Positions 44,009-45,357 of a stretch of 64,000 nucleotides of DNA are shown piece by piece. The position numbers and the translations under genes were made by a program. The stretch is from Arcobacter ellisii (GTDB taxonomy: Bacteria; Campylobacterota; Campylobacteria; Campylobacterales; Arcobacteraceae): NCBI RefSeq assembly GCF_003544915.1, contig NZ_CP032097.1, forward strand, positions 2,294,001-2,358,000, in the 5' to 3' direction. The stretch's first letter is position 1. The number at the start of each line of letters is the position of its first letter. The notes beneath the pieces are model-generated. The model ran no database searches, was not told the origin of the DNA, and worked only from the letters and a program-made list of their open reading frames with translations.

Positions 44009-44971
44009 TTATTTGTTATTTGAAAATTCTGCTATTAATTTATCTAAATCATCACCAATTAAATCATCAGAATCATCACCAGGAATATGTTTTGCTACTG
44101 CTATTTCTTTAGAATTCCCATCATCTTCAAATAAATTATTTAGATATAAAGAAAGTTTTCTAATAACAGCCATAACTCTTTCTATCTTTTGTCTATTGAT
44201 ATCATTAAATTGCATTAATTCCATTGCTTGAAAAATTTGATTATCTTCTTCATTTAACAAATTATTTATGCTTTTTAATGTCTCTTTCGTATTTTTTGCA
44301 CTATTCAAATATCCATCAAAAACTTTAATGTTAGGGAATTTAGTAGACAATGAATTTAATAAATTTACTTGAGAATTAATAAAGTTATCATAATCTTTAA
44401 AAACTTTTCTTATCTCATTATTATTGTCTAAAGTAAAACTTAAAACATCAAATATCTGAGAAACTTTTTCCTCTGAATCATTTGCTACTTGAGTTAACTG
44501 ATTAACAACTTTTGTATCTTTTTCAGCAGGTAGTGGAAATACACCTTCATTTATTTTATTTGAAGTCCAATCTTTTACTATATCGTCTTCACTTCGACTT
44601 ATATTTTTTTCATTGCTTTCTGTTTTTATCTCTTCAATTTTTACTTCAGGAGTTTTTTCAGCAACTTCTTCAACTATTGGTTCTGATGAAGATTCAATAT
44701 CTTTAAGTAAATCTTCTATTTCACTATTTTTTATAAATGCATCATTTTCAGAATTATTCTTAATTTCATTAATAGATACAACAGTATCATCTATTATATC
44801 TTCTGACTTATCATCAATCTCATCTTTTATATCTTCAGTTTGAGACAATAATTCTTCTATTTCTTTTGTATTTACTTTTACTGGTTGAGATACTTCTTCT
44901 GCTTCACTTTCATCATCAGCAATATCCAAACCATTCATTAAAGCTTCAATCTCTTCTTGACTCATACTCAT
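44009..44971 (-). CDS. cheZ: CheZ-like CheY-P phosphatase with FliM-like N-terminal peptide
   Basis: This 320-residue protein has a helical core (about 155-285) with ELMQFNDINRQKIERVM at 251-267. D257 and Q261 match the D-x3-Q active-site pair of E. coli CheZ (D143/Q147). The C-terminus (302-316, DDLIGDDLDKLIAEF) resembles the CheY-binding tail of CheZ. The first residues, MSQEEIEALMNG, look like the CheY-binding N-terminus of FliM, and two similar peptides occur at 35-43 (TKEIEELLS) and 82-90 (NSEIEDLLK), in a long acidic linker. It adjoins cheY. It should remove phosphate from CheY-P at the switch. FliM itself is ruled out because no SpoA domain is present. Confidence 0.82.
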   Translation of the reverse strand: MSMSQEEIEALMNGLDIADDESEAEEVSQPVKVNTKEIEELLSQTEDIKDEIDDKSEDIIDDTVVSINEIKNNSENDAFIKNSEIEDLLKDIESSSEPIVEEVAEKTPEVKIEEIKTESNEKNISRSEDDIVKDWTSNKINEGVFPLPAEKDTKVVNQLTQVANDSEEKVSQIFDVLSFTLDNNNEIRKVFKDYDNFINSQVNLLNSLSTKFPNIKVFDGYLNSAKNTKETLKSINNLLNEEDNQIFQAMELMQFNDINRQKIERVMAVIRKLSLYLNNLFEDDGNSKEIAVAKHIPGDDSDDLIGDDLDKLIAEFSNNK

Positions 44972-44985
44972 GATAAGACCTTATA

Positions 44986-45357
44986 TTATTTTTTTAATAC
45001 CCCATCAAGTTTTTCTTTCAAAACTTCTGCATTAAACGGTTTAACTATATAATTATTAACTCCTGCTTTTAATGCAGTAATAACTTCACCTTTTCCACCT
45101 TCTGTTGTAATCATAATAATTGGAGTTTTCTGATGAGTTCCTTCTGACCTAACTTTTTTAACAAGTTCTAAACCATTCATGTTTGGCATATTCCAATCAG
45201 TTAAGATAACATCATAATGAGCTTCACTAAGAAGTTTCCAAGCTTTAACCCCATCTTCAGCTTCATCAAAATTTTCTTTCGAAAAGCCTAATTGCATAAC
45301 AACATTTCCAATAATTCTTCTCATTGTTGAGCTATCATCAACTATTAGAATTTTCAT
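44986..45357 (-). CDS. cheY: Chemotaxis response regulator CheY
   Basis: This 123-residue single-domain receiver has all CheY residues: D7/D8 (acidic pocket), D54 (phosphorylation site in LTDWNMPNMNG), T84 and K106 (IVKPFNA). It is a stand-alone CheY with no output domain. It is the first gene of the minus-strand run and directly precedes the CheZ-like gene by 14 bases. The leader includes a strong TATAAT, so cheY and the flagellar run share this promoter. Confidence 0.96.
   Translation of the reverse strand: MKILIVDDSSTMRRIIGNVVMQLGFSKENFDEAEDGVKAWKLLSEAHYDVILTDWNMPNMNGLELVKKVRSEGTHQKTPIIMITTEGGKGEVITALKAGVNNYIVKPFNAEVLKEKLDGVLKK

Follow-up and report, generated by a model that had tools for sequence, protein, structure and literature searches.

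An Arcobacteraceae CheZ whose N-terminal arm of conserved FliM-like peptides is a probable multivalent docking arm for CheY-P

Why would a CheZ-type phosphatase carry several copies of a peptide that resembles the one with which the motor protein FliM holds CheY-P? The question is raised by a 320-aa open reading frame with an ATG start (cheZ; 44009..44971, minus strand) in the 64-kb window, the whole stretch of 64,000 nucleotides analysed here, which lies in a complete Arcobacteraceae genome of 2.8 Mb. Directly upstream, across a 14-base gap and also on the minus strand, lies a cheY gene (44986..45357; Pfam Response_reg, 1.2e-29), whose product is the presumed partner of the CheZ; downstream of cheZ follow flagellar hook/basal-body genes and then fliF, fliG and fliH-like genes (the latter three named from their sequences). 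This is the cheYZ pair kept within Arcobacter's largest flagellar locus. The CheY of the cheYZ locus has been named CheYz and was concluded to be the CheY that meets FliM (PMC9321776). The closest solved relative of the neighbouring cheY product was H. pylori CheY1 (E = 1.2e-45), with a near-identical alpha4-beta5-alpha5 stretch.

The first-pass annotation had called the protein CheZ-like, and the NCBIfam model NF041271 (Phos_CheZ) bore this out, matching residues 75–317 with an E value of 3.7e-37, under the 350-bit equivalog cut-off of the model. Scores likewise fell below this cut-off in all 104 Arcobacteraceae genomes searched and in 370 of 397 phylum genomes; with the cut-off passed so rarely, real Campylobacterota CheZ would go unnamed. 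Those listed among the 27/397 phylum genomes that did pass represent a single genus of one family. The score against the Pfam CheZ family (PF04344) was 8.8 bits (gathering cut-off, 30.7), a weak value that leaves the protein unidentified on Pfam evidence alone but is expected because Campylobacterota CheZ are remote orthologues, a description used by Lertsethtakarn and Ottemann (2010) in the title of their paper, which PMC11237671 cites. A phmmer search of the CheZ against the PDB gave no match. CheZ was present in 97/104 Arcobacteraceae genomes and in 327/397 sampled phylum genomes, and the seven Arcobacteraceae genomes without CheZ were also without FliM.

An AlphaFold2 model built from a 91-sequence alignment predicted a long helical hairpin of the CheZ kind at residues 151–282 (44126..44521, minus strand), with helices at 151–211 and 216–282 and pLDDT mostly above 90. 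The D-x3-Q pair had been correctly assigned to D257/Q261: it sits on the second long helix, is invariant in 91/91 aligned relatives (Helicobacter-type included), and is equivalent to the active-site pair D189/Q193 of H. pylori CheZ (PMC11237671). A Foldseek search against the PDB returned 1kmi_Z at E = 1.1 (rank 12, amid many coiled coils), and 1kmi was absent among the 50 rows listed by VIA-align against the PDB; both searches are uninformative, because coiled coils of many unrelated proteins match a hairpin of two helices. We assign the product, from its sequence, as a remote, Campylobacterota-type CheZ, the predicted CheY-P phosphatase of the flagellar operon.

The core is preceded by an N-terminal arm of 118 residues (Arcobacteraceae median, 119), in which D and E make up 34%, in line with the acidic linker described in the first-pass annotation. 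The three EIExL(L/M) peptides that it had reported lie exactly where they had been placed: peptide M1, the FliM-like MSQEEIEALMNG, at residues 3–14 (44930..44965), M2, TKEIEELLS, at residues 35–43 (44843..44869), and M3, NSEIEDLLK, at residues 82–90 (44702..44728), all on the minus strand. The CheZ-type CheY-binding tail claimed for the end of the protein is also there, as judged by sequence, in the form DDLDKLIAEF (residues 307–316; 44024..44053, minus strand), and is kept in 132/132 relatives (86/86 Arcobacteraceae and 46/46 other Campylobacterota).

M1 has the form of the FliM/FliY-type peptide in its EI(D/E)xLL-type core, the S-Q-acidic-acidic residues before it, its N-terminal position and its predicted helix; M2 and M3 share the core motif and the predicted helix, but are internal and without SQ. 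Among the 42 open reading frames of at least 200 aa in the window, the strict motif ([ED]I[ED]xL[LMI]) occurred in this CheZ alone, three times. A genome-wide DNA search for Q[DE][DE][IL][DE]xxL-type sequences found 12 sites, with the N-terminal SQ(D/E)EI(D/E)AL form confined to FliM and this CheZ; beyond these, N-terminal sites were limited to two unrelated ORFs (HQEDIEYFL, IQEELEDLI). A position weight matrix built from FliM peptides and CheZ tails ranked M1 fourth in the window proteome and gave M2 and M3 moderate scores, below several unrelated proteins; we dropped this matrix as a detector for M2 and M3 because it was too narrow. A 20-residue peptide query against the PDB gave no match. 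A small ORF elsewhere in the genome (L222; G000:C1:869 kb) starts with the motif-like N-terminus MTIQEELEDLIKNEVLVEIEDYIDELFE, about 6 kb from a short CheZ gene.

M1 was found in all 86 complete CheZ sequences from Arcobacteraceae, and all 46 from other Campylobacterota (Helicobacter included) began with it in the form MTQEEL[DN].L. For these counts the start codon was picked with a preference for the motif, and sequences missed by the extraction regular expression were likewise seen to carry it. The N-terminus of FliM, MAEFLSQDEIDALLDIAE, was invariant in the same genomes and reads SQDEIDALL versus SQEEIEALM in M1, conservative changes only; its docking part, MAEFLSQDEIDALL, was invariant in the 31 Arcobacteraceae genomes read. 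Being common to all Campylobacterota CheZ read, M1 is an ancestral feature of the CheZ of this phylum and no peculiarity of the present protein. Internal copies were distributed differently: 84/86 Arcobacteraceae arms had at least one, most of them two to four, and one genus (L017) had none, whereas the spacers of the other Campylobacterota (n = 46) gave a single broad match in total, in 1/46, and no strict match. On these counts, what is specific to the family Arcobacteraceae is an arm that is long and carries internal copies.

The arms of one genus (L023, L030, L107 and L096) consist of almost identical SIDDILAGIDGIVDD-type units in tandem, which suggests that docking-like units were duplicated.

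The peptides of FliM and of CheZ tails are known to dock on one and the same face of CheY. FliM and FliY bind CheY-P through the motif EIDALL (PMC9126983, PMC6946799). The tail of a short CheZ paralogue (L212) ends in SQDELDALIKSMNS, reading SQDELDALI; this FliM-like ending indicates that CheZ tails and FliM peptides may almost coincide in sequence. As sequences, CheZ tails and M1–M3 form one class. Since the FliM/FliY site is known and the tails and M1–M3 belong together in this way, we read the arm as three further putative CheY-P docking sites, and consider it probable that this arm gives Arcobacteraceae CheZ multivalent docking of CheY-P, with the tail and about three further FliM-like peptides on each chain.

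Short CheZ-like proteins occur family-wide in two sorts, one of 152–171 aa with an N-terminal MTQ(E/D)ELDA(L/M)M and one of about 116–134 aa without it. Besides its long CheZ, the genome studied here holds a second, short CheZ-like protein of 117 aa (L169:1366-1719, plus strand, close to G000:C1:875 kb), whose relatives are L201-L214. It has the motif D-L-H-R-Q and the docking-type tail SADELELLIKQMQA, and it adjoins truD-like and chemoreceptor genes.

Under the docking proposal, the catalytic core would be flanked by the C-terminal CheY-docking tail and a disordered N-terminal arm of roughly 130 residues, which would add three docking peptides of the class of FliM's CheY-P-holding EI(D/E)xLL peptide. 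Each peptide would become a short helix upon binding the alpha4-beta5-alpha5 face of CheY-P, and each chain would offer about four docking sites where E. coli CheZ has one. A CheZ dimer could then keep several CheY-P molecules close to its two active sites, CheY-P could bridge CheZ dimers into clusters, and the arm peptides could compete with FliM for CheY-P; the effective affinity would be expected to rise and CheY-P to stay close to the active site. We infer CheY-P binding by the arm peptides, clustering and FliM competition from the peptides' likeness to known docking sites. The tethered tail helix of E. coli CheZ has been described as the main site of affinity for CheY-P, and bridging of CheZ dimers by CheY-P has been proposed (PMC1447658). 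In H. pylori CheZ, deletion of residues 1–39, which include peptide 1, left phosphatase function and the biofilm phenotype unaffected, whereas removal of the C-terminal region did affect them (PMC11237671). Because these 39 residues are dispensable, M1 is presumably not needed for catalysis, and the arm should rather tune affinity, clustering, FliM competition or localisation. The suggestion of the first-pass annotation that the arm gathers CheY-P specifically at the motor was not supported.

The dispensability of the H. pylori N-terminus for phosphatase function (PMC11237671) is also the best argument for another partner: the peptides, M1 above all, might dock a different receiver-type protein, such as ChePep or another CheY paralogue, and serve localisation or cross-talk, not the capture of CheYz-P. 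In H. pylori, CheZ and ChePep each require the other for their localisation (PMC5447363), and Arcobacter has five CheY homologues (PMC9321776). However, the peptides agree with that of FliM, which is known to partner the motor CheY. The neighbouring CheYz is reported to conserve the FliM-binding residues, most of which the other Arcobacter CheYs lack (PMC9321776). We regard a different partner as unlikely, at about one chance in several.

The predicted shape of the arm bears on a further reading, in which the peptides, as amphipathic helices, would work inside CheZ itself: lying on the core or pairing with other arms, they would cause auto-inhibition or oligomerisation without contacting CheY. 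AlphaFold2 placed helices at residues 5–12, 35–54, 82–94 and 307–317, coinciding with M1, M2, M3 and the tail, with low-confidence linker between them. We also folded a divergent relative (L011, 384 aa) whose arm carries five copies, taking the motif sites from its sequence before the fold was collected: sites 7, 41, 65, 90, 160 and 374 corresponded to helices 5–13, 39–54, 66–78, 91–100, 160–169 and 372–383. Weaker helices without the motif were predicted at the arm-core boundary (128–141 in this CheZ, 195–206 in L011). That these helices form without a partner is what an internal role would predict, and the regular hydrophobic spacing agrees with it. A broad form of the motif occurred 163 times in Arcobacteraceae arms (17 expected from shuffles), a count in favour of docking, but reversed arms still yielded 82 broad matches, so part of the broad signal reflects general amphipathic spacing. 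Yet the signature is specific (acidic-I-acidic-x-L-L after S, N or D) and is shared with FliM and with the tail of CheZ, and the low pTM values of the two models (0.43 and 0.37) lend a packed arm no support; a purely internal role thus seems improbable.

Relatives do conserve the EIExLL peptides, the point on which the first-pass annotation had made its reading depend. In the arms of 65 non-redundant Arcobacteraceae orthologues, the strict motif was observed 66 times, versus 0.7 ± 0.9 in composition shuffles. Across 35 close relatives, conservation was 0.96 for M1, 0.87 for M2, 0.62 for M3 and 0.46 for the rest of the arm; M3 is clearly below M1 and M2, although conservation in its region peaks at 0.73 (residues 85–93). 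The pN/pS ratios in close relatives were 0.09 for M1, 0.19 for M2, 0.42 for M3, 0.11 for the tail and 0.34 for the core; the remainder of the arm gave 1.06. By these measures the peptides are conserved islands in an otherwise unconstrained linker, where purifying selection has preserved little besides them. A linker one-third D/E makes acidic residues near I and L common, but the shuffles and the pN/pS ratios led us to reject a chance origin of the peptides as scarcely credible.

We therefore retain the docking arm as the favoured reading, although the lower conservation of M3, the moderate matrix scores of M2 and M3, the genus that has no internal copy, the matches in reversed arms and the H. 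pylori deletion weigh against it. An extended version is possible but tentative: Arcobacteraceae CheZ might be a multivalent CheY-P scavenger that clusters with CheY-P, shuts off the motor signal in a switch-like, self-reinforcing manner and competes directly with FliM, the array being derived, inside a single family, from one N-terminal peptide of the ancestor. The function of the N-terminal region of H. pylori CheZ has recently been described as unknown (PMC11237671), and the docking proposal gives this region of Campylobacterota CheZ a testable function. Nature also provides a series, from one N-terminal peptide to one to five arm copies, in which one can examine the effect of docking valency on how fast and how sharply CheY-P is removed and on the competition with the motor.

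How much of this is new? Three elements are already known: CheZ as a family, the docking motif and, in FliY, the combination of a phosphatase with a FliM-like peptide. The first-pass annotation had taken the whole arrangement to be undescribed for CheZ; this no longer holds for the N-terminal peptide, which is in every Campylobacterota CheZ examined, but stands for the internal copies, which are specific to Arcobacteraceae. The literature searched, short of the primary papers on H. pylori CheZ (CheZHP), yielded no CheZ with docking peptides arrayed on an arm, and within that literature the arrangement is apparently new.

Among known systems, the FliM N-terminus is like M1 in its peptide, but belongs to a motor protein, not a CheZ-type phosphatase, and has one peptide. 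CheZHP and other Campylobacterota CheZ share NF041271, the D-x3-Q pair, the tail and an N-terminal MTQEELDALM peptide; they differ in a spacer with a median of only 53 residues and without internal copies. FliY is not known to carry more than one docking peptide. E. coli CheZ, to our knowledge, has no N-terminal FliM-like peptide or arm. It is alike in its catalytic D/Q and its CheY-docking C-terminal helix on a flexible tether, and probably alike in its helical hairpin core (1KMI; PMC1447658). FliY of Bacillus and Thermotoga, a CheY-P phosphatase with an N-terminal EIDALL docking peptide (PMC9126983), resembles the Arcobacteraceae CheZ in this combination, and differs in having an unrelated CheC-type fold within the motor C-ring (PMC9126983, PMC6946799).
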